From assembly GCF_921293095.1 (NCBI RefSeq), contig NC_060258.1, forward strand, positions 4,340,001-4,404,000: a stretch of DNA of 64,000 nt, written 5' to 3'. The notes under the pieces were generated by a model. It was not told the origin of the DNA and did no database searches. It was given only the letters and a program-made list of their open reading frames with translations. The position numbers and the translations under genes were made by a program. Within the stretch, counting starts at the first letter, position 1. Each line of letters opens with the position of its first letter. Of the stretch, positions 33,261 through 53,959 are shown piece by piece. The stretch is from Ischnura elegans (Eukaryota > Arthropoda > Insecta > Odonata > Coenagrionidae).

Positions 33261-33782
33261 AACCTTATAAATCACCCAGATTTTTTAATTATTAATCAAA
33301 TGAACGATTAAAATACAAAATAAATACATACACCTAGCAAACAAAATCTTTAACTCTACAGTTACATGAAAAAGTTTCTCAACACATTTATCTGCATAAA
33401 CTCAAAGACACTCTAGAAAAATATGAGCAAAAAACATTAACCATTCCAATAAGTACTAAGAAAATATTTCTGTCACCACACTTCAAACTCAAAGAATAAA
33501 ATTCATCCACAAATTAAAACAGTATCCCATTCAAGTTATCACACAATCACTACAAAAATGTCATCAAAACAGATAAAAAAAAGGTTTCAAGAAATTGACC
33601 TCAAAATAGATTATAGAAATGTAAATACTTTGATCATACATTATTGCACCTTAATAAAGTCGATAGCCCCAAAAAATTAAGAATGCAATAACCTTGCCAG
33701 GCATGCATATAATATAAAGGGCTATCACAGGTTTTCCAAGCGTTGAGATTTGTGGAAGGTTACTCAGGAATTCCACCGGGTC

Positions 33783-34594
33783 AGGGGCCGTATTCTGTAT
33801 CTCCTAACTGATCTGTGCGGCACCGATTCGCCAGATGGGACATCATAGAGAATCGTGGTAAGCAGTCCTTCGATTCTTTATGAAGCTGATGGGTGCAGCA
33901 TCGACGTGAAAACAGAAGATCATCGCTAGCCATACCAACACAAAAGAAGGTGTCTATACGGCCGCCGACTAATCGGTTTCATGAATACCCCATGCAAATC
34001 CTGGGATTTATTTCGTTTTCCCCTCATTACCAACTCATTAAAGAGGTTTGTCACAATTTATCTCTTTCTCCATTCTATTTCTAATAATCTTTTTCTTTTA
34101 TTATGTGAAGGGAGTAAATAAATTATGATAGAGTGAAATAAAGCATATTCCAAGTGAGTGAAAGTGATATCATTAATGAGAGGAAGTCAAAAAATGGTGG
34201 CAGGCCTCATTTTCACTAACCAATATCTAATATATATGTCAAGGTAATGAATAGTTGATGACAGAGTTCAATATAGTGGCCTATTCAAAGGTCGAGAAAG
34301 ATTTAACATTGCGGAAACCTCATTCATATTTATTTTTTGATTTGATTGTTTGAGGGAAAAACAAAATAAAATGAACAATGCGCAACCAGGAAATTCATGA
34401 AACCCACTACTCGGTGGCCATACCGATACATTTTTGGTGTCCGTACTGCAATCGATGATCTCTCTTTAACTTGTTCATGCTGTACTGCTTGGGTGCATAC
34501 AGAATCACACGACTGCTTACCGGGAGTCAGTGTGAAGTCCCACCCAACGATCGGTGCCACACTGATCGGTTTGGAGATACATAATACAGCTCCT
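33783..34594. mobile_element. Non-autonomous DNA transposon with ~60-100-bp inverted ends
   Basis: Left end AGGGGCCGTATTCTGTATCT; the right end reverse-complemented reads AGGAGCTGTATTATGTATCT. They stay alignable for at least 60 bp (GTG.GGCACCGAT, GGTAAGCAGTC). It is absent at the equivalent site of gene B (about 52800-52950), where only a ~140-bp hairpin with CAGATTCTCC ends is found. Superfamily not recognised. Confidence 0.55.
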
Positions 34595-34599
34595 GGAAA

Positions 34600-35921
34600 A
34601 CTCGAACAAAGAAATGTCAGCCGAGATGTGGTTGGAGAATCTGACCAGGTGTAATTATGGGGCAACCTTCTGCACATCATACAGTTAACCTTTAAAGTTA
34701 TTTATACTAAGGTCATATTTAAAATTGCTAACCACAAAATTTAAAGGAAACTTTCAAATTTTATAATGCATTTTTTAAATCAGAATACAGTTTATCTGAG
34801 AGACTATTTAAAAAAAGTGTTTTTATAACCACATATACAAATAATTTGAATGAAGGCACTAATAGAAATGCAAATATAAAAATAATATTCAAATATAGGA
34901 AGATTTTATGTAAAATAGAGTTAGAAATTACAAATAAGATGTATCACATCAAAAATCCTAATTGCTTTAATTTTACACCTATGGATGATTATGTTTTCTA
35001 GGATAATTTTTGCGCACTTATATTAATTTCCAATACTTTGCCCATCATGCCTTTATTGTACCCACAACGAAACGCCTTGAATATAAACAATGAATTTCCG
35101 AAACGTCGCAAAGATGCTTAATTATACATAACCTTAGCCTCATGAGATCATAGTTAAAGGTGAGGGAGGGGCCCCGAACAAAAGAAAGAAAATAGGTTTA
35201 CATGCATATGAGACTTTATTTGACAACGCATAAAGAATTTTCGGGTCTCTGACACTTCATTCCTTAGCAGCAAATCGTCAGGGATTTCTTTGTTCACTTT
35301 AGCATTCTCCGATTACCTAATCAAATACTTAAAAAGGTAGGGTGGTACAGCCTAGTGGGTAGATTGCCTTTTTGAGTTGATAAGTATTGAATTTGAATGC
35401 CATACTTTCCCGGATATCATTCATTGTTAGGCACACACTTAGTTTTTCCAGATGACAAAATGTATTCATTAGTTGCCACTGAAAAACCAACTTCAACATT
35501 AATATGACCCTGCCAAAGATTCACAGGTGCGGAAAAACCGTTTATGGGAAATAGGACTAGTATCACTTTTCCGTAAACCGTGTTTGAGGGCCTTACATAT
35601 CCCTACAACTGTAGATTCACAAAAGGTACGCTAAATTATCTTTTGATCCTTAACCGAAGTGCCTTTTTAGTTACTATTCGATTTAATGGTCACCGGCAGT
35701 AATAAAACATTATATATTTCTCCAATTGTATCACCAAGCGACTAATCTATATTGTCATATTGAGTTAATCCTTGTGAATTTATTCTGTAACTATTTCAGT
35801 CCACAAATATTTTCTCCCTTGATTCCTACTATTGTAGACAAAAGCCAAAGAGAGTCACTTTTAACTGTGCAACATTTATACTACACCAGTCTTCAAACAA
35901 GAAAAAACGAAAAGTACTCAC
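34600..35921 (-). other. Gene A intron E2-E3, 5' part
   Basis: Aligns in pieces with gene B 51745-52800 (for example the block near 35150-35380 with CTCATGAGATCATAG). No further feature. Confidence 0.5.
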
Positions 35922-36059
35922 CCTGAAGCATTCTCTCATCAAACTTTTTCACAGATCTGCGTTTGACTCTAAACAAATCTTTTTGAAAGCACTTAATTCC
36001 GTCAGTTTCTTCAAACACAGTGGACACATGGTAGCGGGAAGGCCATCTCCCACATCAAT
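35922..36059 (-). pseudogene. Gene A exon E2 (second half of ZAD) with an in-frame TGA
   Basis: 138 nt between acceptor CATCTCAG and donor GTGAGTAC on the minus strand, the same length as gene B E2. It encodes IDVGDGLPATMCPLCLKKLT, then AFKKICLESNADL, including the second CxxC of the ZAD. TGA follows at codon 37 of the exon, where gene B has Ser (AGT). The ZAD zinc-binding Cys all lie before the stop, so a truncated ZAD-only product of about 92 residues is conceivable; otherwise the gene is dead. Confidence 0.75.
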
Positions 36060-36175
36060 CTGAGATGATAATAAAGAAGAAGTTAAACGTCAACAGAATT
36101 CGGAAATATCTTGGAAAACAAAATGAAGTAAGCAGCATTTTAAATAAAATCAATAACATGCAATGTGTAACTTAC

Positions 36176-36343
36176 ATGTAAGCCGACTAAATCATACAGG
36201 GCATCCTTCACCGTTATTTTGCATGCTACACTCGAAGAGTATATGTTGTAATAATAATCATGATTCTTCATACAAAGCCTGCAAAGGTCAATTTCTGAAT
36301 TCCTTACTGAAGATTCCGTGAATATCCCGCTGGTGCGACTCAT
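36176..36343 (-). CDS. Gene A exon E1: start of ZAD
   Basis: 168 nt from ATG (36343) to the donor GTAAGTTA, 56 codons. It encodes MSRTSGIFTESSVRN, then IDLCRLC (first zinc CxxC of the ZAD) and KITVKDALYDLVGLH. The ZAD is an N-terminal zinc-coordinating dimerisation domain of insect C2H2 proteins. It differs from gene B E1 at roughly one base in six. About 30 bp before the ATG (GTGAATGATATTTTGAAG) also match gene B, supporting the start. Confidence 0.85.
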
Positions 36344-36434
36344 GTTTTCACTTCAAAATATCATTCACAATTTAATTCAGGCCTATCGTCACAGAAATCA
36401 TCCACTCAGCATTGACATGTATCACAAAATCCCA
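36344..36434. promoter_or_regulatory. 5' flank of gene A (left half of a former divergent intergenic region)
   Basis: Lies between gene A's ATG and the 9-bp target duplication of the Foldback-like element. Without that element, the ATGs of genes A and B would be about 1.05 kb apart and divergent. No specific promoter element is claimed. Confidence 0.5.
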
Positions 36435-36443
36435 CAAGGAAAC
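36435..36443 (+). repeat. Left 9-bp target-site duplication
   Basis: CAAGGAAAC, identical to 50381-50389, immediately outside the left terminus. Confidence 0.75.
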
Positions 36444-37330
36444 ACGTACATTATTTTAACCCATGGAAGGTCATCCCACGCTCCAAGAAATAACGCCAAT
36501 GTATTAGCTAAGAATAAATGCTTTATATCAACGTTATCAGTGCGATTTTTGTAATGAAACAAAGTAAAATGCCAGAATAACGTTTATTTTTTCCATATAA
36601 CCACATAAAATTATTCTTTTTTATTTATAATACGCGAAAATAAGACTTTATCATATAAGTGTAGTCAAAGTTTCAGTGGGTCATTCATAAATACATTAAA
36701 GCCAGAATGCAAATGAAACGAGCACAAAGGTAGAGAAAAATGATCAATATTTATGAAACGTCCCATTACAACCAACTTACAGCATAAATAAATTAACAAT
36801 AAATTATTTATTACTAGGACGCTATCCTAAAAGCAGTGCCGTTGGGAAACGAATAACTGATGCAACTTATGACACTGGATTTTACAAAACATAAACGCCA
36901 AGCACCAATGAAATTTCTTATTAATATAATTTACAATAAATTAATCAATAAAATGAATCATTAAAAACATTGCAATATTAAATTTAAATGTACAGAGGCC
37001 ATTATAAAAACATGGACGCTTTCGGAATCTCGCGACGGGGAAAAAGCCCATTGCAGACCATATTTCACTGGGTCATTCACTGTCAAACCAGTATAAAAAA
37101 TCTAAAAAAACGCACTTTATATGAAAGAAAAGAATGAAAATTAATGAAACAGAGGATCCCCATACACATAGACTACGAATAGAAAAACCTTAATTATTTA
37201 AAAAATACGGCGCTATCTCATTTCGAAAGCGAATTAATCACATGCAAGGCAAGGGAATTGCACTGAACTATTCATAAATATAAGAACGAATTTTTCTTCA
37301 AAACACATTCAAATTTCGACATACTTTAAG
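36444..37330 (-). repeat. Outer left arm: diverged satellite-related repeats
   Basis: GGGTCATTCA motifs at about 36690 and 37069 followed by GAAACGTCC-type blocks show kinship to the 539-bp unit, at shorter spacing. It matches the right arm at 49578-50380. Confidence 0.6.
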
Positions 37331-39870
37331 GAAATAAACTGAAACCGGAGCATTTAATAAAATTGGATTTAACCTAATAGGACAATATAAATAATAACAA
37401 TTGACGTAACAACAAGTCGGAGTAAAGTTATCAATAGGTTATTTAAAAATAAGTGACAGCGAATTTCTCATTCACAAACCTCTACATCACGAGATGAAAC
37501 ATCAAAAATTATGAAACGTCCATAGCCCAAACCGTTCATTAATGTATACAGTAACATGGTGCCATCAAATTCATGGCCGCACACCCGAAATCACCCGTAC
37601 GATGGTGGAATGACATAACTTGGAATTAATTTTTTTCTTACCACTGTGATGAGCCCACACTTGAAATAACGCTTAGATCATTGAAAAAACACATTATACC
37701 ACACGCTGGAAATTAAAAAAACTCAAATAATTCATTTCCCTCTTTGAAAATTCGGCATGGGCTGGCCCTACCCACACCCTACGCAACCAACTCGCGTCCA
37801 GGAATAGAAAAACTTTATAACTTCATTGTTTACCAAAGAAATTCCACGATTTTTTCTGCACACGTAGGTGGAATTAAACTACAATGATAACAGGTTTTAC
37901 AATTGGATTTCATCCATGTCCGACAGCGTAGAAAAATAACTAATCAACAGAAAAATCGAGGTAAAGTTATCAATGGGTCATTTAAAAATTACTGAAAGCA
38001 ATTGTCGCATTCAAAGTCCTATAGATCACGAGATGAAACATTATTAATGTGAAACGTCTATAGCCCACAAGGTTTGGCAATATATAGAGTAAACTGGTGC
38101 CATCAAACACTACGCTGCACACCCGAAATCACCCGCACGAAGGTGGAATGACATGACTTGGAATTCATTTCTTTCTCACCACTGCGATGAGCCCACACTT
38201 TAAATAACGCTTAGATCATTGAAAAAACATATTATACCACACGCTGGAAATTAAAAAAACTCAAATAATACATTTTCCTCTTTGAAAATTAGGCATGGGT
38301 TGGCCCAACCTACACCCTACGCAACCAACTCGCGTCCAGGAATAGAAAAACTTTATAACTTCGTTTTTTACCAAAGAAATACCACGATTTTTTCTGCACA
38401 CGTAGGTGGAATTGAACTACAATGATAACAGATTTTACAATTGGATTTCATCCATGTCCGACAGCGTAGAAAAATAACTAATCAACAGAAAAATCGAGGT
38501 AAAGTTATCAATGGGTCATTTAAAAATTACTGAAAGCAATTGTCGCATTCAAAGTCCTATAGATCACGAGATGAAACATTAAATAATGTGAAACGTCCAT
38601 AGCCGCCAAGGTTTGGCAATATATAGAGTAACCTGGTGCCATCAAACACTACGCTGCACACCTGAAATCACCCGCACGATGGTGGAATGACATGACTTGG
38701 AATTCATTTCTTTCTCACCACTGCGATGAGCCCACACTTGAAATAACGCTTAGATCATTGAAAAAACATATTATACCACACGCTTAAAATTAAAAAAACT
38801 CAAATAATACATTTTCCTCTTTGAAAATTAGGCATGGGCTGGCCCAACCTACACCCTACGGAACCAACTCGCGTCCAGGAATAGAAAAACTTTATAACTT
38901 CGTTTTTTACCAAAGAAATTCAACAATTTTTTCTGCACACGTAGGTGGAATTGAACTACAATGATAACAGGTTTTACTATTGGATTTCATCCATTTCCGA
39001 CAGCGTAGAAAAATAACTAATCAACAGAAAAATCGAGGTAAAGTTATCAATGGGTCATTTAAAAATTACTGAAAGCGATTGTCGCATTCAAAGTCTTATA
39101 GATTACGAGATGAAACATCAAATAATGTGAAACGTCCATAGCCTACAAGGTTTTGCAATATATAGAGTAAACTGGTGCCATCAAACACTACGCTGCACAC
39201 CCGAAATCACCCGCACGAAGGTGGAATGACATGACTTGGAATTCATTTCTTTCTCACCACTGCGATGAGCCCACACTTGAAATAACGCTTAGATCATTGA
39301 AAAAACATATTATACCACACGCTGGAAATTAAAAAAACTCAAATAATACATTTTCCTCTTTGAAAATTAGGCATGGGCTGGCCCAACCTACACCCTACGG
39401 ATCCAACTCGCGTCCAGGAATAGAAAAACTTTATAACTTCGTTTTTTACCAAAGAAATTCAACGATTTTTTCTGCACACGTAGGTGGAATTGAACTACAA
39501 TGATAACAGGTTTTACAATTGGATTTCATCCATGTCCGACAGCGTAGAAAAATAACTAATCAACAGAAAAATCGAGGTAAAGTTATTAATGGGTTATTTA
39601 AAAGTTATTGAAAGCGAATTTCACATTCAACCTCCTATAGATTACGAGATAAAACATCAAATATTATGAAACGTTCTTAGCTCACAAGGTTTGGCTATAT
39701 TTAGAGTAACCTGGTGCCCACAAATACTACTCCGCACACCAGAAATCACCCTCGCGAAGGTGGAATGACATGGACTTGGAATTCATTTTTTTCTTACCAC
39801 TGTGCTGTGCCCACACTTGATATACCGCATAGATCATCGAAAAGACATATTATGCCACACGCTGAAAATT
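37331..39870 (-). repeat. 539-bp satellite, left arm (about 4.5-5 copies)
   Basis: The landmark GTAAAGTTAT recurs at 37422, 37961, 38499, 39038 and 39577 (spacing 538-539). Shared blocks include ATCACCCGCACGA, AACCAACTCGCGTCCAGG and GTCCGACAGCGTAG. Central copies are most alike and the edge copies diverge, as expected for arrays homogenised by unequal exchange. Confidence 0.9.
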
Positions 39871-40069
39871 AAAAACACTGATAAGTTTCTCCAAAATTGG
39901 AAAAGGAGAAAATGATTTAAATGCGAAAATGAAATGTGTTATGTCGACGGAAAAAGGAAAGCTTTCAAGTGATGTCATTGAAGCAGTGGAAATGTAATCT
40001 CATCCTTCGCACATTTAAGTTCCATCGCAGGCAATTAATTTATTTATTTCGACATTTGTTTTTCGCACT

Positions 40070-40500
40070 TGTAAATAAAAGTAAGGTGAGGTGGGGCAAG
40101 TGCGACTGCGGGGTAAGATCGACCCCCCTTCAGGAAAATCGTATTTCCGTTCTCGAAGCAGGTGGCGGTCGCGCAACATATTCTACACATAGTAGTGAAA
40201 CCAGAGCCAACGATTTTGTAATACTTATCACTCAATTTCTCGTTACACATGCTTAGGAAATATACCCGTCGTTCATCTCGTAGTCTTAGTTGGTTGTGAG
40301 GAGAGGCTATACCGCAGTTCCCTCTGAATCAACGCATCGGAGGTGTTAGGTAAGAACTATATTTTGTTTTCTCTTCTTCATGGATTGGTTTTCCTTGCTT
40401 TACTTTAAGTTTAAGTGCGACCCCCTGTCGCACTTACCCCAGGCAACAGGCCCTGCCTGACAGGGGGTCGCACTTACCCCAGGCTTCGAGGTTGAAGTAT
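40070..40500. mobile_element. Fragment of a pogo/Tigger-type element with GTGGGGCAAGTGCGAC repeats
   Basis: GTGGGGCAAGTGCGAC at about 40090 and inverted GTCGCACTTACCCC blocks at about 40430 and 40470. The design parallels the GGGGCACAGTGAAAC subterminal repeats of the element at 46542-49577, with a different core. No transposase. Confidence 0.4.
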
Positions 40501-41433
40501 GGATTGAATTTTTAGTTTCTGTCTAACAGTTCTTGCGGAAAACTTTTCCTTTCTGCCTGGCAATTCTTGCGTTAAACTTTCTTAAATGTTGCAAAACACC
40601 GAAGTTTATAAAACTAGGTCTTTTAGTTAGAGTCCTCTCATCAACTTTTATTTTGAAGGTTTATCTGATAAAGATAGCTTACTTCAGTTTGTTGATTGAT
40701 TATGATAGGGCATTGGATATCATGTCTTCGACGAGGAGGATGTAGACGACATGGCATTAATGCCTGAAACAAGATAGCAGGAGTGGAAAAATCTTAACAA
40801 ATTCGGTGACTAACATTCAAAGCTGAGATTGGATTCTGGCTAGATTCAGCAGCAAAAAGTCAGTTGCTCACTATGTAGGGAAAATTCTGGAGATTAATGA
40901 ATAAGGTGATGCCGTGGTTTGCTTTTTGAGGACATTTTTTGGAACTGAAATAAGTTTCACCTGTCCACGGAATGAGGATTCCAGCGAAATACTTTGGGAA
41001 GATGTTGTAAAAATATTACCGAAGCCCTCTGTCGGCCGTCGAAGAAATTTAACATTTAGCCTATCTTTCTCGGGGTAAAAGTTAAAATAAACGAATAAAT
41101 ATTCAATGTTCTATTGGTTGAAGACCATGAGTTTTTCTTCATTTTACTTTTTTATATTAATAACGCCAATTACATTAGAGAAGAAATTCTTTGTTCATTA
41201 CAATATAGTTTGTATTCAGATTTGCTGTCATATGCAAGATTTATAATTTTTTTATTATTTTTTATTTATTCAGCTTTCATGCATACTAGATATTTTAAAT
41301 ACACCTTTGAGATAATGTGTAACTATATGCAGTTATTACGAAAAAATGTAGCTCTCGTACTAGTCTCTATTTCAAGATTTCACGTGTTGCGTGATGCTGC
41401 GAATTTAAATAATTTAAGCATTTATTTATTTAA
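40501..41433. other. Loop sequence of the Foldback-like element
   Basis: AT-rich. Short frames have no recognisable domain. Confidence 0.4.
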
Positions 41434-42314
41434 GGGGGCGCCCTAGCACGGTCGCGGAAGACGATGCAGACCCTTTCTATTAACCAGTTTGTGCTTCGCT
41501 AATTATAGGTACATAGCGGTTTCTTGACTCAGAATATTTATGAAGCTTAAATCTGTGCCTTGATACAAAGACGAGTCTTTTACCAGGTTTCCTACAGGAG
41601 ATACTTGACGCTTAATTTCACGAATTTCGTTTTTTTTTGCAATGACTAATACCACGGCGCAAAATCACGTAAAGAATATCCAACCAGTTACTGGTTAAAA
41701 TTGCTGAAATTTTATTTTTTATTTTGTTTTATACCAAAACCACCTAATACAGCTCAAATTGGGCCATTTTATATAGATTATTCAAAAAGTTTAGAAATTA
41801 TTTACACGAACAACCAAGCCCTGGATAGGGGAAACCTACCCAGCCGGGACTCGAACCCACGAGTTCTTGTTTGGCAGGCGAGGACATTACTCAGCCGACA
41901 CCGAGGTCGGCGGTGTTATGTTGACGACATGCTTGTTTACGTAATGAAGATATCATCGCCAACAATTTCGGAAAAGGTGTTAACTCAAAAGGACCTTTGC
42001 ATTCACAGGCCTATTTTTTCAGCGCGTGAGAGAGGAACCAGAAGTTGGCGTCTAATATTTTTAATTGGCTCGCCCCCACTTAGGTGTCACATATCAACTC
42101 CGACTGCTAACCTTGTTCCAACGACCCGTATCAAGTTTATCCTTAGCATCAAATTTCTCCTCGGAGTCGTCGCGGGTGAAGTTGGGAGGGGAGTTGCCTT
42201 TCCCCCCCTTTCTCTCCCTCGAGGCTCTTCGGCTTCCGTCTCCATATCCCGGCGCTGCAGCTAGAGGCCTTCGTGAGCCATTTAATTGGGAAATTCAAAC
42301 ACTAGGGCGCCCCC
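41434..42314. mobile_element. TTAA-flanked element with GGGGGCGCCCTAG ends
   Basis: 881 bp. Left TTAA|GGGGGCGCCCTAG and right CTAGGGCGCCCCC|TTAA form perfect 13-bp inverted ends with a TTAA duplication, as in piggyBac-type transposition. The ends do not follow the usual CCC start and no transposase is present. It encloses a SINE copy. Confidence 0.5.
41829..41912 (-). mobile_element. tRNA-derived SINE, copy 1
   Basis: The minus strand reads CCTCGCCTGCCAAACAAG, then CGTGGGTTCGAGTCCCGGCT, a Pol III B-box region of a tRNA-like head. It is followed by GGTAGGTTTCCCCTATCCAG. It matches the SINE at 43200-43380. Confidence 0.65.
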
Positions 42315-43136
42315 TTAACGTGGTTGAGAAACAAACGAAGGAAATCATTAAGACTTTTCAAAAATTCGTCCGTTGGAACATTGTTCCCAGCGTCCCCTGC
42401 GTCACTGGCTGCCGTTCTCTTTATCGCTGGGTGGTTGGGGGGGACTCTTCCCCCACCACCACCTGTTCCAAGCGTGGGAACCGCGCGTCACACAGATTCC
42501 CATGTTCTCTCTGCGTAAGCTCCCCTCCCTTCCCTCCCGAATTCTTCTGACTGTAAAAACCCATAAACATTACGTAGTCCTCCAGTTTTCCTCGAAATAA
42601 CAAATATAGCTAATAAAAGCACTTTTTCTTTATTTGTAATTTTTCTATGATCCGTAATCTATAAAAATACTGATATTTGTGAATATTCATCAATTCTATT
42701 GATGCCATGTTGCCAAATGTGGCCGCAGCGGGCCGCTTCCACTTCCCGGGAACGTGGTTCCGCAGCATTTGTTCACTCCGGCGTGTTTTCTTAATGTCCA
42801 TTTATAATTTATGCTACAGAAAATCATGTATTTTCTGGTCATAGAAAAATTGCAAATACTTCCTTTCTGTATCACTAACCTATGACTATTATTACTGTAC
42901 GTAGCAACGGGAAACGGAGCGCGGCGATGCTGCCAACAATTGTAAATGCTTGCTGGATTTATGCACCAACAATTATTGACGTTATTTTCTTTTTTATTAA
43001 TCCTTCCTGCCATTCAATGGAAACGCAACTGTTGAGGATACTTTCAGTGAAAATAAAGCGTAACGTAAATGTTTACGGTAGACATTCTTTCTCGCTCTTC
43101 TTTATTTCGTTCGCCAAATGTTTTTAGGCAATACAC
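42315..43136. other. Loop sequence of the Foldback-like element
   Basis: Mixed composition, no recognised gene. A GGCCGC/GCGGCC-rich block near 42720-42770 and CCAACAATT repeats near 42940-42975. Confidence 0.4.
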
Positions 43137-43199
43137 GTCGTACACTGACTTTTTCCGGGATGCGTGTTCTTGCCGTACCAGGGACCACAGTCGGAAGAA

Positions 43200-43380
43200 T
43201 TCGGGAGGGAATCGGTCGGTGGCGGTGGGGTAAAGTCCTCGCCTGCCAAACCGTAGGTCGTGGGTTCGAATCCCGCCTGGGTAGGTGATTCCTATACAGG
43301 ACATGGATGTTTGTGTAGTACTTTGTTAATATTGGAAACCCTCGTTGTAAAAGCACGTTATGTGCTGTTTACGGGGGAAT
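43200..43380 (+). mobile_element. tRNA-derived SINE, copy 2
   Basis: The head reads GGTGGCGGTGGGGTAAAGTC (A-box region), CCTCGCCTGCCAAACCGTAG and CGTGGGTTCGAATCCCGCCT (B box). The body continues GGTAGGTGATTCCTATACAG and AAGCACGTTATGTGCTGTTT, ending in an AT-rich tail. Confidence 0.7.
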
Positions 43381-43409
43381 TGATTATAAATAAATATGCA
43401 AATTACTTC

Positions 43410-44133
43410 TGCCATTATATGAGGTAACTAAGGAAATATGCTCAGAGAAGCAAGTAATAGCTTCAAAAATTAGACCTTTTAGTCTAGGGATCAGGAAATA
43501 TATTGGAAGTACGTTAACTGAGAAAGAGAGTCTCAATGATGAGGCTCAGCAGATATTAGGAAAAATTCAAAGCGAAATTGAAAAAAGATTTTACAAAATT
43601 GAGAAAAATCCAATTACTGCTGAAGCAAATTTGCTGGAGCCACGATTTAAGAAAGTCGGATTTGAAGATGTTGTTGCTGCAGAAAAAAACGAAGAAAAAT
43701 TGGATTGCAAAGGCAGAAGCTCACAACATGCAAGACCACAAAGACACTCAACATCAAGGGACTATTCATCAAGAGGAAGATTCCACTGAGTCACCTTCAT
43801 CTGGCAGCGTTTGGAAACATTTTGATTCAATGGTCAAAACCAGAATATGTGTCCCTTCTCCAACAGCTGCAGCCATTATTGAGATGGACAAGTTCTTATA
43901 GCAGAACCACACCTGGAGAGGCATGGAGATCCTCTCAAGTGGTGGTGGCGGAATCGAGACATTTATCCTCGACTCTTTTCAGTCATGATGAAAAGATTGT
44001 GTGTTGTTGGCTCATCGGTGCCATGTAATAGGGTATTTTCTAAGGCAAGGGCAATTTTATCGGAGAGGAGACGGAGCCTTAAACCAAAGAGGCTGACAAA
44101 ACAGGTTTTTTTGAATTACAATCTTCACAGTTA
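43410..44133 (+). pseudogene. hAT transposase, C-terminal relic
   Basis: Two frames are needed. First EVTKEICSEKQ...ANLLEPRFKKVGFEDVV, with the hAT LL(D/E)PRFKK motif. After a shift near 43730-43900 comes the dimerisation domain: WWWRNRDIYPRLFSVMMKRL, SSVPCNRVFSKARAILSERR, LTKQVFLNYN, then a stop. The BED finger and the first catalytic part are missing. It is ZBED-like hAT. It cannot mobilise the surrounding element. Confidence 0.8.
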
Positions 44134-45439
44134 ATTTTTTTTATTTCTGCACTTCTTTGCATTAAAATTATCAATATTATCCAAACCCATGTACCCATGT
44201 TCCCTAATATTTTCATGGTAGCTATGTTTGAATGATAAGAATGATTGGTTTAACATTTACAAAAAGGTCATGCTGGTTTCTCGAAGGAGTATATTGGTAC
44301 TCTGAATTTTATTACACTTATATGTTCTGGACAGGCAATTTTGCCATTAATTATTTTGAACAAGAAAATCAAATCATATAAATGAGATGTGTAAATGGTT
44401 ACATTTATCAAGTTCATCAGAAATGCTGTGCAATATACAAACTTAAACCTTTATTGAAAATTTTTGTTAGACCATCTTTATATACAGTGAGTCCTCGTTT
44501 AACGTCACTTACCGTTCCTGAAAAATGTGACGATAAACGAAATGACGTTAATCGAAGCACAAGCATTCAAAGAAAAATTAAACAAAACAATGAAAATGGC
44601 GTAGCAATATTTTATGAATTTTTGAATTATTGCGGTCTCCCAGACCGCACGTCACTGGTAGTGTAACAAGAATTGCACATCACTGGTTAAGGTTTAACAT
44701 ATCAAGATATACCAAAGAAAATAAAGTGGTCTAATTTAATTTCTTCCTCCCTATTCGTTATTACTAAATAGATAACGGATAGTTTTTCCATTTGTGTTGT
44801 TGTCAATTACGTAAAAATTACATAAAAACCCCAAAAATTATAAGGCATTTAAATGTTCTTGTTCAGATTACTGAATCATTGCCGCGTCATTATGCTCATT
44901 AGCTAAAGTTTAATTTTCGATGACGATTTTGAAATTGTGGTTAGAAATATATTGCTCAAGAAGCGCCGTCAAAAGTCTCATAGAAAAATCCAGTCCCGAG
45001 CGTCAAGCAATAGCTGAACAAAAGCTTGGGCAAGGCGAAGTCTAGTTTTAATAGCGGAAAACTACACTTGCGGGTGTTCTCACATTTACATGTGGTTATA
45101 CCTTTTTTCGTTGATCTATGTATTATCACAGCTCTTGGGACATGACATTACTCCTAATGATAAATTTGAGTGCCTGACTGTTGTCTTGCAACGGTAAGAT
45201 ATGGGGGATGACGACCAGATCAAGAGTGCACCCAGGATCATAGCTAGGGGGGAAAGCCATGGGATTTGTGAGATTATTTCCTTGGAAAAATAGTTTTTAT
45301 TTAGTAACATATTTTATACTAATATAGCATTTTTATGGGTCAAAAGAAAATTTGTTGAATACTTGCATTTCAACTTAGTACTGATTTTGCTGAAAGACTT
45401 GCGATTCTTCGGCAACTGAGGAAATTAAAAAATGTTTAC
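44134..45439. other. Right part of the Foldback loop
   Basis: AT-rich. A CAGTGAGTCCTCGTTTAACG block at 44487, with an inverted echo near 44530-44560 (GATAAACGAAATGACGTTAA), resembles one end of a Tigger-like miniature element. No partner end found. Confidence 0.4.
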
Positions 45440-46541
45440 TTTCCCTGCATTTGAGTTGGTTGCGTAGGGTGTGGGTGGGGCCAGCCCATGCCTAATTTTC
45501 AAAGAGGGAAATGAATTATTTGAGTTTTTTTAATTTCCAGCGTGTGGTATAATATGTTTTTTCAATGATCTAAGCGTTATTTCAAGTGTGGGCTCATCGC
45601 AGTGGTGAGAAAGAAATGAATTCCAAGTCATGTCATTCCACCATCGTGCGGGTGATTTCGGGTGTGCAGCGTAGTGTTTGATGGCACCAGGTTACTCTAT
45701 ATATTGCCAAACCTTGGGGGCTATGGACGTTTTGCATTATTTAATGTTTCATCTCGTGATCTATAGGACTTTGAATGCGACAATCGCTTTCAGTAATTTT
45801 TAAATGACCCATTGATAACTTTACCTCGATTATTCTGTTGATTAGTTATTTTTCTACGTTGTCGGACATGGATGAAATCCAATTGTAAAACCTGTTATCA
45901 TTGTAGTTTTATTTCAGCTACGTGTGCAGAAAAAATCGTTGAATTTCTTTGGTAAACAACGAAGTTATAAAGTTTTTCTATTCCTGGACGCGAGTTGGTT
46001 GCGTAGGGTGTGGGTGGGGCCAGCCCATGCCTAATTTTCAAAGAGGGAAATGAATTATTTGAGTTTTTTTAATTTCCAGCGTGTGGTATAATATGTTTTT
46101 TCAATGATCTAAGCGTTATTTCAAGTGTGGGCTCATCGCAGTGGTGAGAAAGAAATGAATTCCAAGTCATGTCATTCCACCATCGTGCGGGTGATTTCGG
46201 GTGTGCAGCGTAGTGTTTGATGGCACCAGGTTACTCTATATATTGCCAAACCTTGTGGGCTATGGACGTTTCATAATATCTGATGTTTTATCTCGTAATA
46301 TAGAGGTACATCAACGGCGAATTTGCTTTAACTTTTTATTTAATGACCCATTGAGATTTTTATTTCGACTTGTTGGGAGGTCAATTTTTTTAATATCTAT
46401 TGTCCTCTTGGGTTAGATCCAATTATATTAAATGCTCCGGTTTGTAGTTTGTTTTCACCTTGTATGTGGAAAATTGAATGAGTAATGAATTAAAAATCGC
46501 TTTTATTTTTATGAATGTTTCAGTGCATATGTTAAGCCCTA
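45440..46541 (+). repeat. 539-bp satellite, right arm (about two copies)
   Basis: Inverted copies of the left-arm unit: GGTTGCGTAGGGTGTGGGTG at 45460 and 46000, ATCGTGCGGGTGATTTCGGG at 45643 and 46182. The second copy decays rightwards before the pogo insertion. The right arm has about three units fewer than the left. Confidence 0.9.
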
Positions 46542-46937
46542 GGGGAGGGTGGGGCACAGTGAAACAAAAATTATTATTTTGCCTATAAAAACATTGCTTT
46601 TGAAAATAAAATAACAATGAAAATATATAAATGGTGCTTGTCATTTTCTTCACTATTCCTACTTTAAAAAATGGAATTATTTAAAAAAGCAATGGATTTA
46701 CATCAATTTTTGTAGTGATATGTCAATTGTTTCACTGTGCCCCATGTGTGGGGCACAGTGAAACAGGGCCTTTTTTACTTATGGGGCACAGTGAAACACA
46801 TTTTTTCAGATTTTATAATACCATTTATTTTTACCTTTGGCAATATTTTCACTAGAATGAAACTCACAATGCATGAATACAGTAATGGATTAAAAAACAT
46901 GAAACAAACTGCACCTTAGTCAGTGATAATTAGAAGC

Positions 46938-48759
46938 TTAACGAACATCTAAATTGGCAAATGAAATTTTAAATGAAATAAACCTTTTCATTCTTGCAGT
47001 TCCTTTGCGATAAGAAGGAGGTGGTAAAACTAATTTAATGTCTTTCATGCTGACAGATGCTATATCTTCAATATGTGGGAAAAAAAATGAATTTGGCACT
47101 TTGGAACTTTTTCGTAAATATGTAACTTCAGCGCCATTGTGTTTTCTTGCTTCTTTAATTATTCTACCTACATAGTAGAATTTTTTCTTCGATGAAAACT
47201 CAATCAAAACATAATCACCAACTTTTACTGTACCTACTTTATTTCCAAAACCTTCTAAAATATCCTCATTACCTTCCAAGGGGTTTGAAAGTCCTCCCTC
47301 TGACGTGGTGTCTGAATTTTGATGGGGCCCCTCACAGTTATCAATGGCAACATTGGCATTAAATAAACTTCTGCATGATTTAGTTGCCTCAGAAGTTTTT
47401 TTTCCTATAGCTGTATTTTTCTTTTCCATCATACGGATTTTTTCTGGTGTGTCTGTTATGATCATACTTTTGCCTGGTTCTCTTTTCCTGGTTGAATTTT
47501 TCCTTGGAGCGGCTTTAGGATAGCCCTTGAACTGAGCAGGACTTTGAAAAGTTCTTTTATCTTCACCTTGACCATTGTTTAAACTGGAAGTACTTGCAGT
47601 TGCTCTTAATTCTTGGCTCAATAAGTCACACTCTTCAGTTTCAGGAGAAGGCTGGTCTGTTACAGAACTACTCAAGAAATCTGCCTCGGTGAAAATGTGC
47701 CTATTATATGGATATATTCCAGTTTTTTTGAATCCATTAATAATAGTAGCTGGAGTCATAGCCTTTTGATGGGCAAAATTGACGCATCCTGCAATATGGT
47801 AGATGGAAAGAGCTTTACCTGGATTGCTTTTGTTCCAGGAATCAACTGCTGCGGCATAATAGGTCTTAAATGGAGCATAACAGGAAACATCCAAGGGCTG
47901 TAATTTGGCACTGCAATGAGGTGGAAGAGTCACAATCATTATGCCATACTCTTTTGCCAAATCTATTACTTGTATACTAATATGGCTTTGGTGATTATCC
48001 ATTATTAGCAGTGTAGGGTCTTCTTTACTTGTTTTTGTATGTTTGATGAAGTGCTTAATAACTTCAGGAAATATTTCTGCTGTCATCCAACCACTTTTCG
48101 ATGTCAGTCAAAGAGAGCCAGGAGGGGCATTGATCAACATATGATCACTGAACTTGACCCTTGGGAAAACAAATGCAGGGGGTATGGTGTTTCCGGATGC
48201 ACTCACAAAACAGCATGTAGTAACTAGAGTTCCCCTTTCACCTGCTGTTACATTATTTACCCCTTTGGATCCCTTTTCTGCAATCACCTTGGCAGACTTA
48301 TTTACGACTGTTGAGGTACCAGTTTCATCTAGATTCCATATTCTGGAACCATCACCAAAACATTCTGAACGTCTTAAGGCTGCACCAAGATTGTCAAAAA
48401 ATGTTTTCACTGTGTGTGCATTAAATGATGTGCAACGAGAAAGAGAACAGTTTTCAGGCTGCCGAATGCTTAAATTTGGATTTCGCTTCAAGAACAATCG
48501 TAGCCAGTCTAAACCTGCAGCAGAGTCATCATGCCAGTTTTTTGGCACTTGTATAGAGTTCACCACTGCCATTTCATAAGCTAGCTCTCGAGTGTTACGA
48601 GTCGACTGACCATAACAGAGTTTTGAGCATGTTATCAAATAGTCAGCCAAGCACTTTTCTTGTTCAGCTGTAAAAATCAATCTGGATTGATATTTTGGTG
48701 TCATGCGAACATGTTCACCAGTCCCTTCATCACTAGCCTTTTTTTGCTTACTCACATAC
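46938..48759 (-). pseudogene. pogo/Tigger transposase, exon 2 (one in-frame TGA)
   Basis: The minus strand begins at acceptor TTTTCAG and reads YVSKQKK, then a CENP-B-type DNA-binding region (DWLRLFLKRNPNLSIRQPE) and the DDE catalytic domain. Candidate acidic residues are D in WNLDETG, D in LLIMDNHQSH and D in LQPLDV. A basic C-terminal region follows (KSMIITDTPEKIRMMEKK, YYVGRIIKEA). A TGA at 48108-48110 interrupts NAPPGSL|LTSKSGWMTAEIF; the frame is the same on both sides. Otherwise the frame appears intact, so the copy is young or the TGA is recent. Confidence 0.88.
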
Positions 48760-48899
48760 CTGAAAAGAATCTTTTCAAAATTATTATTTGGAAAATTTGA
48801 ATGTCAGTTTACGTTTACTGTTTATTTGAAATTTAAAAAAATTTTCAGAAAACTTTCAATGTTACAAGATGTTCACATGCAAAAAACAAATAAACATAC
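48760..48899 (-). other. Intron of the pogo/Tigger transposase
   Basis: 140 bp, GTATGT...TTTTCAG on the minus strand. Joining exons gives TLSRYVSKQKK without a break, across the end of the psq helix-turn-helix. Confidence 0.75.
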
Positions 48900-49042
48900 C
48901 GACTGAGTGTTACATAATTGACATTACATTCTTTGGCTGCTTTCCTGATTGAATAGTTTTCATGCAGAACAAGATGAACTGCAGCGCGCATTTCACCATC
49001 TGTGAAGGATCCAATATGGCTCTTTCTTATTCTATTCCTCAT
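48900..49042 (-). CDS. pogo/Tigger transposase, exon 1 (psq helix-turn-helix)
   Basis: Starts ATG at 49042 (MRNRIRKSHIG) and carries FTDGEMRAAVHLVL, then YSIRKAAKECNVNYVTLSR, a psq-type helix-turn-helix that contacts the inverted ends. It ends in phase 2 at donor GTATGT and continues into exon 2. Confidence 0.8.
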
Positions 49043-49577
49043 TTTTGGAATCTTTATTCTGAAAATAATGAAATTCCATCAGAATAACAATAATAATTAC
49101 TATAGTAATCCACACTGCATATTTCAAGTCAAATAGTTCTTCCTAAATGAGACATGGGGCACAGTGAAACATGTTTCACTGTGCCCCATTTATCTTGTTT
49201 CAGTGTGCCCCACCAGGCCATCTTGAATAAATAAACTTACTGCATGAAAACAAATGAAGATATAGAAATATGTTTGGTGGTCTCCAAAACTTAAGAAATG
49301 GTAACAGTAAATACAATGATAAGTTAAGATTTCCCATGAAAAGGAAAAGTTTGTCAGTGTGAAATAATTCTTTGGAATTATTTACTTTTCTCACCTTAAA
49401 ATAGGTTTTGATCCATCAACAGGAGACTAGAAGAGCACAAGCCATGAGACTGCAGCAGCTGTTGTGGTGTTAGTTCCTTAATATAACACAGAGAGCACTA
49501 ATTCATAGAATTGTCAGGAGGAGGGAAATTTGAATTGTTTCACCCTGCCCCATGTTTCACTGTGCCCCACCCTCCCC

Positions 49578-50380
49578 TACATGTTATTATTTCGGTTCCG
49601 ATATGAGATAGCGCCCCATGTTTTAAATAATTATTGTTTTTCTTTTTTTACTCTATAGCATTGAAGAATATCTGTTTCATTAATTTTGATTCTTTTTTTG
49701 TCTTATTAGGTGCGTTGTTTTTAATTATTGGCATTAGTTTGACAGTGAATGACCTACTGACATATGGTCTGCAATCACTTTTTTTCTACATGGTGACTTT
49801 GTGATAGCGCTTAAGTATTTATAATTGCTTCTTTTTGATTAGCGTTTATACTACGATGTTTTTAATGATTCTTTATACACATTATGACATTGAGTATTAT
49901 TTTAAGGAAAAATTTCATTGGTGCTTTGCGTTTTTGTTTTGTAAAATCCAATGTCCTAAGGAACTTCAGTTTCGTTTCCCAATGGCACTACTTTTAGGAT
50001 AGCGCCCTTGTATTAAATGTCTTATTGTTATTTTATTTCTGCTGCATGGTGGTTGTAATGGTACGTTTCATAAATATTGATCATTTTTCTCTACCTTTAA
50101 GCTCGTTTCATTTGCATTCTGGCTTTAATGTATTTATGAATGACCCACTGAAACTTTGACTACACTTATATGATAAAGTCTTATTTTCGCGTATTATTAA
50201 TAAAAAAGAATAATTTTATGTGGTTATATGAAAAAAATAAACGTTATTCTGGCATTTTACCTTGTTTCATTACAAAAATCGCACTGATAACGTTGATATA
50301 AAGCATTTATTCTTAGCTAATACATTGGCGTTATTTCTTGGAGCGTGGGATGACCTTCCATGGGTCAAGATAATGTACCC
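49578..50380 (+). repeat. Outer right arm of the Foldback-like element
   Basis: Inverted counterpart of 36444-37250: GAGATAGCGCC at 49603 and 37205, AATGACCCACTGAAACTTTG at 50140, and the terminus CCATGGGTCAAGATAATGTA. Identity with the left arm is highest at the outer end. Confidence 0.8.
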
Positions 50381-50389
50381 CAAGGAAAC
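50381..50389 (+). repeat. Right 9-bp target-site duplication
   Basis: CAAGGAAAC, identical to 36435-36443, directly outside the right terminus. Confidence 0.75.
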
Positions 50390-51329
50390 TGCATTCACTA
50401 CAAGTATGTGCGAAAATGAAATACTTTAGAATGCTCAACGAAAGGAACGTAAAAGCCAAAAATAAATGAATCGCCTGAAAGATATACCAGGACGAAATAG
50501 CATGGACCGAGAATATTTTCAACAATTTTGGACACGATTACAAATTCCGTGGACACACAATATGCAATAAGATTTATCCACAACATTACTTGTTAATATA
50601 AGACAATACAATCAAACCTATAGAGACGATGTTTTCTAGTTGACATTTTATCCGCCAACAGCAGACATACAGAACAGCCCATGCATCCGTGTTTGAAGAC
50701 ACATTTCCTTCCATTTGATAAAATAAATAGACAATACGTTGATATTAATCATTTGTTTTCAATTTGTTGTAGAACAACTGTTTTTTGTTAATATTAATTC
50801 ATTAATTTGTCCAGAAACTGAATGTAAGCCCAACCTCGGCTTGCACATGGTCATATCCCATTTGCACTCTTTAAATCGGAAAATGACTATACACTTTTTA
50901 TGATGTAGTATTAATCGTTTAAAAATATCTATGAATGATATTTCTCAATAAATCCCAATATTAAACCACAAATCGTTGAAAATACCTCATGTTTCGATTG
51001 TAGGCCTGTTGCATTTGTTTTCCTCTAGCGGGGTTATTTGCAACTAAAGTCCGGTATCTGAACCAAATCTCGCTAGCCTGGTCAGTTAATAAGTACGGTG
51101 TCAATCAGCTTGAAATACTTGTGCAACGTTTGCTGTTTACTCTGCTGCTACGTGATTTCTTTGTGAGATCCGACTTAAATTTGAGCTCATTACGCCCTTT
51201 TCCTTGATAAGTCTAATGTTTTTGCATTGATGTACGTCATGGAAATGATTTTAATGTATTAGGAATTTGGAAATCACGGAGTGATACGTGGATGATTTGT
51301 TGGAGTGAATGAGATTTTGAATCGAAAAC
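50390..51329 (+). promoter_or_regulatory. 5' flank of gene B
   Basis: 940 bp upstream of the gene B ATG, which was joined to the gene A flank before the Foldback insertion. The last ~30 bp (GTGAATGAGATTTTGAATCG) match gene A's 5' UTR. No specific core promoter motif is claimed. Confidence 0.5.
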
Positions 51330-51497
51330 ATGAGTCGTACCAGCGGGATTTTCACGGAATCTTCGGATAGGAATCCAGAAATAGACATTTGCAGACTTTG
51401 TAGGGAGAAGCATGATTGTTATTACTGCATATTCACTTCGAATGTATCATGCAAAATATCTGTTAAGGATGCCCTACATGATTTAGTTGGTTTACAA
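51330..51497 (+). CDS. Gene B exon E1: start of ZAD
   Basis: 168 nt, 56 codons, from ATG (51330) to donor GTAAGTGG. It encodes MSRTSGIFTESSDRN, then IDICRLCREKHDC (first CxxC of the ZAD) and KISVKDALHDLVGLQ. With E2 it forms a complete ZAD of the CxxC...CxxC type, the N-terminal zinc-dependent dimerisation domain of insect C2H2 factors. Gene A has the same exon in mirror image 15 kb to the left. Confidence 0.9.
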
Positions 51498-51606
51498 GTA
51501 AGTGGCACATAAAATGATTATCGATTTTCTTTACAATGGTGCTTACTTCATTTTATGTTTTAATTCCAAACTCTATTTATGTGTAACTTGTTTATTAACG
51601 TCTCAG

Positions 51607-51744
51607 GTTTCTGTGGGAGATAGCCTGCCCACTACCATGTGTCCACCGTGTTTGAAGAAACTTACGGAATTCAGTGTTTTCAAAAAGATTTGTTTAGAAT
51701 CAAACGCCATTCTGAGTAAAAGTTTACCGAGAAGTTGCTTCAGG
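51607..51744 (+). CDS. Gene B exon E2: end of ZAD
   Basis: 138 nt, 46 codons, phase 0-0, acceptor CGTCTCAG and donor GTGAGTAC. It encodes VSVGDSLPTTMCPPCLKKLT (second CxxC), then FSVFKKICLESNAILSKSLP and RSCFR, the long C-terminal helix of the ZAD. Intact here, whereas gene A has a TGA at the Ser of AILS. Confidence 0.9.
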
Positions 51745-53959
51745 GTGAGTACTTTTGGTAATTTCTTATTTGAAGACTGGTGTAGTATAAGTATTGCAGA
51801 GGTGAAACTCTTTGGTTTATGTAGACAAAAGCAGGAATCAAGAATGATATATTTTGCGAAACGTTTTACGGAAAAGTGTAACAAGTCCAATTTCCCGTAA
51901 ATGGTTTTTCCCTATCCGTCAATCCTTGGCAAGGTCCTATCAATGTTGCTGTTGGTGTTACAGGGGCGACGATTGAAGACATTTTGTCTTCTGGTAAAAT
52001 TAAGTGTGTGCTAAACTACTAGGAAATCATAGCATTCAAATTCAATATTTATCAACTCAAAAAGACAATCTACCCACTGTGCCCTACCACGCTACCTTTT
52101 TAAGTATTTGATTAGGTAATCGGAGCATGTTAAAGTGAACAAAAAAATCCCTGACGATTTGCTGGTAAAGATTGAAGTGTCAGAGACCCAGAAATTGGTT
52201 TGTCAATGCGTTGTCAAATAAAGTCACATGTGCACGCGAACGTATTATCTTTCTTGGGCTCGGAGCCTCTTCCTTACCTTGAATTATGATCTCATGAGGC
52301 TATGGTTATGTAAAACTACAATTATCTTTGCGAAGTTTCGGAAGTTGATTGTTTATTTTCAAATAATCTTGTATTAATATATGGTGGTTACAAGGAAGGT
52401 AAGATTGGCAAAGTGTTACAAAAAAAAGTTCAAAGGTTACCTGTGTTAGAAACGCATTTTTTTAGGTACTGAGATGTTTATTCTTCATAACCGTCTTCAA
52501 AATCTTTGCAAATAATATGGAATGCAGAAGCTTACTCATGAATTCTCAGATTCTCTTACTCCATCATGGACAACATTTTTTACACAATCTTTTAGATAGA
52601 CTCTATTTTGTTTCTAAAAGTACATTATAATATTTGAAAGTTTTCTATAAATTTTGTGGTTAGCAAGTTTAAATATGACATTAGCATAAATAAGCTCAAA
52701 GGTTACCTGTGTTAGGAAATATATTTTTTAGGTCCTTCATAACAGTCTTCAAAATCTTTGCAAAGGATATGGCATGCAGAAGCTTAGTCAGGAGTTACGC
52801 CAGGCCAGATTCTCCTACTCCATCATGGCTGACGTTTCTATTTCGACGAGTTGTCCTGGTGCACTCATGACGATGGACAGCTCGTACATCAAAACTTCGG
52901 CTGATTGTAAGATAGAGTTGGAGAATCTGACCCAGTGGAATTCCCATGTAACCTTTAACGATTCTATATGCAGGGAAAACCTGTGATAATTCTTTTTATG
53001 ATATGTATTCCTGGCAAGGTTATTCCATTCTTAATTTTTTGGGGCTATCGACGTAAATAAGGGTTATAAATTCATACTCAGAGTAGCTTAATTCTTACAA
53101 TCTATTTTGAGGTCTATTCTCTTGAAACCTTTTTTATTTATTTTGATAATGTTTTGCGTACTAATTGCGTGATATTTGGAATGTGATGCTGTTTTAATTT
53201 GTGGATCAATTTTGCACAATGAGTTTGGAGTGTGTTGACAGAAATATTATGTTATAAGGAGACATCGCCAAAGTGATGTTCGGGATCTGCATGCGGATGT
53301 TATTGATTGAAACTTTATAGGTAAGGTAGAAAAAGTGCCACGGCTCTCTTCCACACAGGCCCGGATTTGAGGAATATTCCCTTGTAAAGATTTTGGGCAG
53401 GATGACATCCCTTGAGTAATGGCTACCTCTTTAACTACGGCCGTGTTTTTCTCTCTTCTTATTTTTGAAATCACTGTTACATTTTATCCCCATTCGTTTA
53501 ATTTAGTTACTTCGCGATTTTTTAAATTTAATATCAATTTATGGATTTTAAACGAAAGTCCATCTTGTCTCTTACCACACCGATTACTCTTGGGTTGTCA
53601 TGTTGTGCGAAGTCTTTACAAGCGAATATCTCTCGAACCAGGGCCTTTGTGGAAGAAAGCAGTGACACTTTTTCTACCTTACCCGTATAGTTTCAGAAAA
53701 TAACATCCGTATCCATATCCTGAACATCACTTTGGCGACGTCTCCTTGTTAGTGCATAAGGAATAATTAGTGTTTTTTGCTGATTTTTTTAGCATACCTT
53801 TGAGATTATGCAGCCAACTGTGGTGGTAAACTTTTTCACCAATCTGTAGAGTGAAAGATTTAGTTAGTGATGTGTATTTATTTTGTATTTTAATGGTTGA
53901 TTTGATTAATAATTTATAATTGTGGTTGATTAATTAGGCTCTGACCACCCTAATATAGA
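51745..53959 (+). other. Gene B intron E2-E3, 5' part
   Basis: AT-rich, alignable in blocks with gene A. It includes a ~140-bp hairpin (about 52803-52940) with ends CAGATTCTCC and GGAGAATCTG, at the site where gene A carries the 0.8-kb TIR element. Confidence 0.5.

Follow-up and report, generated by a model that had tools for sequence, protein, structure and literature searches.

Long, internally repetitive inverted ends occur in more than one kind of DNA transposon. Foldback (FB) elements of Drosophila have long inverted arms with internal repeats, which are short subrepeats of tens of bp, and 9-bp target-site duplications; Galileo, also of Drosophila, has duplications of 7 bp. Galileo belongs to the P superfamily, and its THAP domain binds sites in tandem repeats (PMC3688188). 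In Tetris of Drosophila virilis an outer domain, up to 866 bp long, precedes a tandem array (TIR-220); this element has 8-10-bp duplications, unit-wise changes in copy number and no apparent coding capacity (PMC4079207). Tm1 of the nematode Meloidogyne, a Mutator/Foldback element, carries a Phantom-type putative transposase of 496 aa (PMC3169594). Rehavkus is characterized by a 9-bp duplication, a PHD finger in the transposase, a minisatellite, arthropod hosts and a terminal inverted repeat of 26-400 bp (PMC6446971). Rehavkus-1_TC of Tribolium castaneum holds the 164-bp satellite TCsat23 in its inverted termini, mostly as five and eight monomers (PMC10218199).

The window considered here is a stretch of 64,000 nucleotides from Ischnura elegans (NC_060258.1, positions 4,340,001 to 4,404,000). 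A first-pass annotation, made from the letters alone, had described a 13.9-kb interval with inverted termini and a perfect 9-bp direct repeat at its flanks, and all of these lie where it placed them (Table 1). The repeat CAAGGAAAC occurs at two places only in the window, 36435 and 50381, both on the + strand. The element ends are ACGTACATTAT at 36444 and GGGTACATTAT on the reverse strand at 50370. The outer ends are inverted copies of each other (36446-36853 and 49971-50378; 408 bp, 95%); the inverted similarity is 84.6% over about 800 bp and extends to about 970 bp. The insertion lies about 100 bp from the ATG of the left gene.

Table 1. Features of the element and its flanks in the window.
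Feature	Position	Strand	Remarks
Left gene, first coding stretch, starts MSRTSGIFTESS	36140..36352	-	Mirrors the start of the right gene; by itself without a Pfam match
Left copy of 9-bp target-site duplication, CAAGGAAAC	36435..36443	+	Flanks joined over one copy have matches at paralogous sites
Complete element, 13,937 bp	36444..50380	+	Ends, duplication, comparison with other copies
Left terminal inverted repeat, outer domain	36446..37244	+	84.6% against its right counterpart; 95% over the outer 408 bp
Left satellite arm, 539-bp units, about 4.6 units	37414..39879	+	
Unpaired loop (core), partly common to other copies	39880..45404	.	No match to the family's candidate transposase
hAT transposase remnant	43394..44134	+	Dimerisation domain in 43883-44134
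Right satellite arm, 539-bp units, about 1.8 units	45405..46371	-	
Inner right-arm piece, severed by nested insertion	46372..46541	-	Paired with the sequence that borders the left array on the outside
Nested pogo/Tigger-like transposon, 3,036 bp	46542..49577	-	Flanked by TA; inverted ends GGGGAGGGTGGGGCACAGTGAAAC; matches to HTH_psq and DDE_1
Right terminal inverted repeat, outer domain	49580..50378	-	
Right copy of 9-bp target-site duplication, CAAGGAAAC	50381..50389	+	
Right divergent gene: ATG 51330, ZAD part (zf-AD, 51502-51900)	51330..51900	+	

This layout is not a product of chance, because five other two-ended copies repeat the ends and the layout with 9-bp duplications of their own, and because a search of the 1.72-Gb genome with the end pattern gave 146 family ends and the same pattern backwards gave none. 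The interval 36444-50380 is a transposon with dozens of relatives in this genome, and not a segmental duplication. The annotation had made its reading depend on 9-bp duplications at other copies, and they are there: among 13 loci examined, all six two-ended copies, that of the window included, have perfect 9-bp duplications, and all six differ. When the flanks are joined, 40 scored paralogous sites match them through the junction, with 98% over 240/240 bp in the best case. Neighbouring ends less than 40 kb apart face each other in 25 of 25 cases among the 111 ends listed. Such paired ends lie 6-33 kb apart, and their number is an undercount, since few ends with two or more mismatches are listed beyond contig C3. 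An inverted duplication also makes up the flanking ZAD region (33457-36368 and 51305-53254, 77-90%), as would suit a satellite locus that was simply duplicated in inverted orientation, its 9-bp repeat being coincidental. That explanation is contradicted by the empty sites, which are continuous across the junction, and by six different duplications at six places; the consistently facing pairs also speak against it, and we regard it as virtually impossible. A comparison of an element end with phage records gave no similarity.

As the annotation had noted, the satellite of about 539 bp is present in both arms in opposite orientation. The left array consists of 501 bp, three units of 538-539 bp and 349 bp, and the right array of 466 and 501 bp. 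Elsewhere in the genome, 78 of the 87 listed matches of this unit are on the inner side of family ends (40 of 61 candidates scored). The same applies to all 150 listed matches, out of 279, of the 540-bp unit of a sister subfamily (38 of 138 candidates scored). Pooled, this amounts to 228 of the 237 listed matches, where up to 33 kb to the inner side of an unpaired end counts as inside; the share of the genome that counts as inside is about 0.2%. The annotation had named a satellite never bounded by these termini elsewhere as the observation that would turn against it, and had suggested that the satellite may spread within the element arms; the pooled count ties the satellite to the termini and is in keeping with such a spread. 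The subfamilies are about 63% alike, with the unit length kept at 539-540 bp.

The satellite could also have come first, as ordinary satellite DNA that the transposon captured repeatedly. A few fragments do lie outside the listed ends (9 of 87 matches of the 539-bp unit, among them C19:6803569, beyond a partner end), and in the related C4b copy the arrays start elsewhere, at unit position 97. Against repeated capture, the six two-ended copies have their outer array edge at unit position 39 in all 12 arms, the sister unit is equally confined to elements, and no long free array is present among the matches listed for either unit, which leaves capture very improbable. No clear shorter period was found within the 539-bp unit. 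Transposase-binding sites would suggest a motif common to ends and units, but a comparison of the satellite unit with the outer 200 bp of each end gave none above shuffled controls. The best candidate for a conserved box in the unit across three subfamilies reached 20/25, under the shuffled 95% level of 22.

The copies also keep a record of exchange: sequence conversion between ends, altered unit numbers and recombinant arrays. Units at the array edges hold their position, and inner units are partly homogenised. Unequal exchange, which had been suggested from the differing copy numbers of the two arms, thus gains support from unit-number changes and recombinant arrays seen directly.

A transposase is missing from the window copy, in which a hAT scrap and a nested pogo-like insertion are all that was found; its loop yielded no MULE transposase. 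The region of the hAT remnant is common to the copies C19a and C8, with no match over 200 bp in C13b, C19b and C19c and none in C17, and no 8-bp duplication with inverted ends was found around the remnant. The nested transposon at 46542-49577, which we take to be of the pogo/Tigger kind, splits the right arm; C13b is continuous at the matching place, without this insertion. Other mobile elements are nested in family copies as well. For example, a frame in the C17 loop (L022:5695-6156) that had been considered as part of a MULE has no Pfam match and is present at 27 other places with 84-97% identity, so it was treated as another element nested in that loop. When 12 of 25 PF10551 (MULE) matches were compared with the elements, two matches resulted, one of 51 bp in C8 and one of 349 bp (79%) at the C12 locus, where the matching DNA lies outside the end.

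The most likely family transposase combines a MULE-like DDE core with a Ulp1 domain and, at its C-terminus, a PHD finger. Three relatives with family ends carry a gene whose product has the Ulp1 and PHD domains. In the C17 copy this gene is situated in the loop, where the sequence on either side of it is collinear with the window core; no left end of this copy was found in the C17 DNA examined. In an old copy at C3:118.25 Mb, a core-like piece separates the family end from the gene, and the third gene copy lies between facing C3 ends 33 kb apart (121425730-121458652), a pair known by its coordinates. The three are the best-scoring matches of the gene search. PF00628 (PHD) is matched in the C17-copy gene and in the relatives L046 and L047, and the H, D, Q and C of the Ulp1 domain are aligned. 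The longest frame, of 1,156 aa (C17:9162671-9166138), has DDE-like residues D456, D529, C574-A-H576 and E742, as read by eye. The DDE part matched no Pfam family and no solved structure significantly, and a profile comparison with the MULE proteins of this genome, based on shallow alignments, was not significant (probability 0.7%, E 0.083).

It is important to note that the gene may instead travel as a passenger or belong to a nested element, the true transposase being of another MULE branch that was not found. Besides the lack of a significant match for the DDE part and the further mobile elements nested in family copies, this would be consistent with the absence of listed ends around 18 of the 21 gene places tested (rows of one place merged; most rows of the separate PF10551 family dropped), a figure that may be too high, since it refers to the listed ends. 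Among the 18 are the locus of the 1,156-aa frame, within 5.8 kb upstream of which no family end was found, and two partial copies with 71-73% similarity to the C17 gene. A passenger is nevertheless unlikely: two diverged copies show the gene collinear with the core, a third end pair encloses it, and a PHD finger is a stated feature of Rehavkus (PMC6446971).

Compared by published descriptions, the element appears closest to Rehavkus, in or beside MuDR/MULE (MuDR in Repbase), rather than to Drosophila FB. We use the Rehavkus label because a 9-bp duplication, a PHD finger and a satellite in the inverted termini have been described for that group; here, too, the satellite sits in inverted termini with 9-bp duplications in an arthropod host, and the PHD finger is in the candidate transposase. 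The units of 539-540 bp differ from the 164 bp of Rehavkus-1_TC, as do the distances between paired ends (6-33 kb versus 9.5 kb), and the inverted repeat (408 bp at 95%, with similarity to about 970 bp) compares with 26-400 bp. The Ulp1 domain and the record of conversion between arms set the Ischnura family apart from Rehavkus as described in these excerpts, and among the papers searched none contains both words Rehavkus and Ulp1.

The annotation had spoken of a Foldback/MULE-like element. The transposon with satellite arms and 9-bp duplications stands, while the label gives way, as 539-bp units, PHD finger and Ulp1 domain fit Rehavkus better than FB-NOF. A strict Foldback element, related to FB-NOF and moved by a NOF-type protein, would share the long inverted arms with internal repeats and the 9-bp duplications. 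Unlike FB, the family has a 539-bp unit without a clear shorter period instead of subrepeats of tens of bp, a unique outer repeat of about 970 bp ahead of the array, and a candidate Ulp1-PHD gene found with its ends, so we consider strict Foldback descent rather improbable. Galileo differs in its P-type THAP transposase and its duplication length. It is similar in its long, internally repetitive inverted ends, which resemble Foldback (PMC3688188). Tm1, which joins Foldback-like composite inverted repeats of variable length to 9-bp duplications, as here, and to a Mutator-type transposase, lends the Foldback reading some support; its transposase, however, is of the Phantom type, and the available part of its description has no 539-bp satellite (PMC3169594). 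Tetris as described resembles the window copy in its outer domain followed by a tandem array, its unit-wise copy-number change and the lack of apparent coding capacity. Its 220-bp units also form satellite arrays of kilobase size, whereas the Ischnura units, among the matches listed, are nearly all inside elements, and relatives in the Ischnura family carry a candidate gene.

We therefore read the interval in the window as a non-autonomous copy of a giant DNA transposon of the Rehavkus kind, and give this account as a whole, including transposase, arm exchange and satellite spread, a probability of about 0.78. Insertion and duplication are observed; for the rest, we infer cut-and-paste by the Ulp1-PHD protein. 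A family transposase encoded elsewhere in the genome would recognise the ends, move the element and leave the 9-bp duplication. Each arm comprises an outer inverted repeat of about 970 bp and then the tandem 539-540-bp array, and gene conversion and unequal exchange between arms and among copies would alter unit number and mix subfamilies. The satellite is proposed to have spread because it rides in the transposon arms. The window copy, which lacks the transposase region and holds a hAT scrap, inserted between two divergent ZAD-type genes, about 100 bp upstream of the ATG in one of them, and itself took in a pogo-like transposon.

A broader idea, which we think quite unlikely, is that the family carries a whole superfamily of 539-540-bp satellite DNA, that a transposase with its own SUMO protease and histone-reading PHD finger could strip SUMO from host silencing complexes at insertion sites, and that the satellite arms act as multi-site transposase platforms; for the platforms, motif searches of units and ends gave no support. 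As a probable further member of a known, little-studied transposon group, to which it sits closest, the element would bring together a predicted SUMO protease and a DNA transposon of the foldback type. A satellite repeat may travel inside a transposon, and the family, with units traceable inside tens of elements, would offer a natural series on how tandem satellites arise and spread.

The inverted ends, 9-bp direct repeat and opposed satellite arrays that the first-pass annotation had described for the window element were all found where it had placed them; the window itself spans C13:4340001-4404000. These ends define an element family, recovered by the genome-wide search that the annotation had proposed: a 30-base end pattern matched 146 ends (67 + 79) in the 1.72-Gb genome, against 0 in the reversed control. 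Among the 111 ends listed, neighbouring ends less than 40 kb apart form at least 25 pairs; 25/25 face each other, with a spacing of 6.3–33 kb (median 12.2 kb). The strict window pattern returned 13 ends, namely six pairs and the copy on contig C17. Both ends were located at 6 of the 13 loci having at least one such end; at five of the other seven a single end lies in the DNA read, and in two copies (C4a and C4b) the second arm is without its outer 48 bp. The 9-bp duplication was assessed in the six two-ended copies, and the flanking 9-mers, which the annotation had proposed to compare, are perfect and mutually different repeats in all of them: CAAGGAAAC (window), ACCATAATA, CCTGATTAT, CATGTAGTG, CTACAATTG and CATGGAGAG.

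An empty-site query of 240 bases was built by joining the two flanks of the window element, leaving one 9-mer between them. Of 269 candidates 40 were scored; all 40, located on C13, C14, C16 and C17, cross the junction with small length differences at most, and the best of these 40, C17:6504466-6504705, reaches 98% over the whole query. Since the matches run across the junction, the region between the divergent genes is itself a unit that recurs in the genome. In the simplest reading, the element hit this region in the window after the split from its 98% paralogue; we conclude that the window element was inserted and its target duplicated. The element lies ~100 bp upstream of the left gene's start codon, and the right gene has a PF07776 (ZAD) match; zinc-finger genes of the ZAD type point to an insect as host. 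The scored matches, all on the same four contigs, suggest that the paired zinc-finger genes have undergone a large expansion. Two element copies on C4, 208 kb apart, have an identical right flank over 30 bp and are probably a segmental duplication rather than two insertions.

Coordinates of features in the window and at other loci of the same genome
Feature	Location	Description
Left gene, start codon	window 36343	
Right gene, start	window 51330	
Inter-gene region of divergent ZAD-type genes	window 33457-36368 and 51305-53254	40 scored matches (of 269 candidates)
Tandem repeat	window 5277-6308	84-bp unit (28 codons), 12.2 copies; C2H2 zinc-finger-like by eye
Tandem repeat	window 9497-11943	464-bp unit, 99-100%; two adjoining rows, 3.3 + 2.0 copies
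Tandem repeat	window 58826-59406	64-bp repeat, longer period 257 bp
Element copies	C4:50787234 and C4:50995620	L024, L025
Satellite-unit groups	C9:17736341-17746126	two groups, opposite orientation, 9-10 kb apart; none of the ends listed there
Inverted repeat	C19:6796301-6804100 (L042), 1-1017 / 5941-6958	~1,018 bp, 99.8%
Extra sequence in C8 copy	L009-L011 joined, 14712-19668	~10 kb; frames of 1003 + 542 aa
Third Ulp1-PHD gene copy	C3:121451044	between facing ends 33 kb apart

Sequences of other transposons lie within the window element. Its loop, the unpaired part between the arms, holds a scrap of hAT dimerisation domain, and its right arm holds a pogo-like element with TA on both sides, inverted ends and HTH_psq and DDE_1 matches, which is absent at the corresponding place of the C13b copy. 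As hAT elements duplicate 8 bp and pogo elements TA, neither fits the 9-bp duplication. The frames in the extra sequence inside the C8 copy resemble a retroelement, possibly Penelope-like. At L042, the inverted repeat extends ~315 bp beyond each of the two family ends, so the copying took in flanking DNA as well as the ends; beyond its right copy there is a satellite fragment.

The satellite was mapped against the ends, as had also been suggested. Of 87 listed matches to the window unit, 55 lie between paired ends and 23 inside an unpaired end (on its inner side, within 33 kb), which places 78/87 on the inner side of listed ends; the remaining nine are on C9 (5), C2, C6, C15 and C19 (1 each; the C19 match lies immediately outside a pair). 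The C9 groups are perhaps an eroded element. A sister subfamily has a 540-bp unit, ~63% like that of the window, with 279 matches; the 150 listed fall between paired ends (55) or inside an unpaired end (95), and 0 lie elsewhere. Among the matches listed, the satellite is thus nearly confined to elements, and ~0.2% of the genome meets a looser criterion for lying inside ends. In 12/12 arms of the six two-ended copies the array starts, on its outer side, at unit position 39, so the joint between array and outer repeat is old.

The arms themselves have changed in unit number and in content. Left/right unit numbers are ~4.6/1.8 in the window, 5.6/3.8 in C19a and 5.6/2.8 in C8, and otherwise similar copies differ by about whole units; the window and C19a are 97.6% identical over their collinear stretch. 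Most edge units match their counterpart in other copies at 97-99%, but two of C13b, inner-left and outer-right, are partnerless. Several inner units are closest within their own array (C8 L3 and L4, identical; C13b L3-L5, 98-99%; C19a L3/L4, 98.9%), but this does not hold for every inner unit, window L2 being closest to C19a L2. C8 units L1-L4 resemble C13b and the remainder of C8 resembles the window and C19a, as would be expected of a recombinant whose breakpoint falls within the satellite. The C19a left-arm unit L5 is closest to right-arm units. As for the ends, over bases 30-100 the left end of the window element is identical to the right end of the same element (other copies, 74-87%), C19a has the right-type tip at both ends, and the two ends of C19b and C19c agree at 99-100% over bases 100-960; we read these likenesses as conversion of one arm by the other. 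Left (ACG) and right (GGG) tips remain distinct in 5/6 two-ended copies. Conversion together with unequal exchange best accounts for the unit and end patterns; unequal exchange had already been proposed by the first-pass annotation and is supported by the whole-unit differences between alike copies and the recombinant-type array of C8.

A candidate transposase comes from the C17 copy, whose left end was not found and in which the part of the core equivalent to window-element bases 6068-8118 is replaced by 8.5 kb carrying a gene whose product has Ulp1 and PHD domains. Its H, D, Q and C align with those of yeast Ulp1 (1euv), which we take to be the Ulp1 active site. At C3:118.25 Mb, an older copy shows, in order, a family end, a stretch similar to the core of the window element (163 bp, 68%, E 4e-9) and a relative of this gene; the end (L052:4450) has two mismatches to the 30-base end, and 97 kb of shuffled sequence contained no end with up to nine mismatches. 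These two places and the third copy are the three best-scoring gene places (100, 84 and 72% identity), the second and third having internal stop codons; among the ends listed, none surrounds the other 18 of the 21 places tested. The frame of a more distant relative is unbroken over 1,156 aa; within it, D456, D529, C574-A-H576 and E742, ahead of the Ulp1 and PHD domains, may by our own reading form a MULE-like core; Pfam and profile comparison gave this core no support. The Ulp1-PHD protein would be the family transposase, its mechanism and any role of the Ulp1 domain in the element being likewise putative. Among the papers searched, none has both words Rehavkus and Ulp1; Ulp1 is mentioned in papers on further transposons, Ginger and elements of plants among them. 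A separate MULE family (L029, L030, L031, L032 and L034; C2, C8, C7 and C16) has long frames joining a PF10551 domain to a weakly Ulp1-like region (E 2e-5 to 7e-5).

In the excerpts available, Rehavkus elements make duplications of 9 bp, have inverted repeats of 26-400 bp and feature a PHD finger as well as a minisatellite (PMC6446971), and were transferred into MuDR by Repbase (PMC4455052); Rehavkus-1_TC of Tribolium is 9.5 kb long, its inverted termini containing a 164-bp satellite (PMC10218199), and an arthropod MULE survey gives lengths up to 10 kb, with Rehavkus as outgroup (PMC13359780). As far as its excerpt goes, Tetris (PMC4079207) comes closest as a foldback element that feeds a satellite. 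We infer that the window family is a member of Rehavkus. The window element is a new, unusually large representative of an already known kind of transposon, and its family documents the growth and mixing of the satellite arms well.
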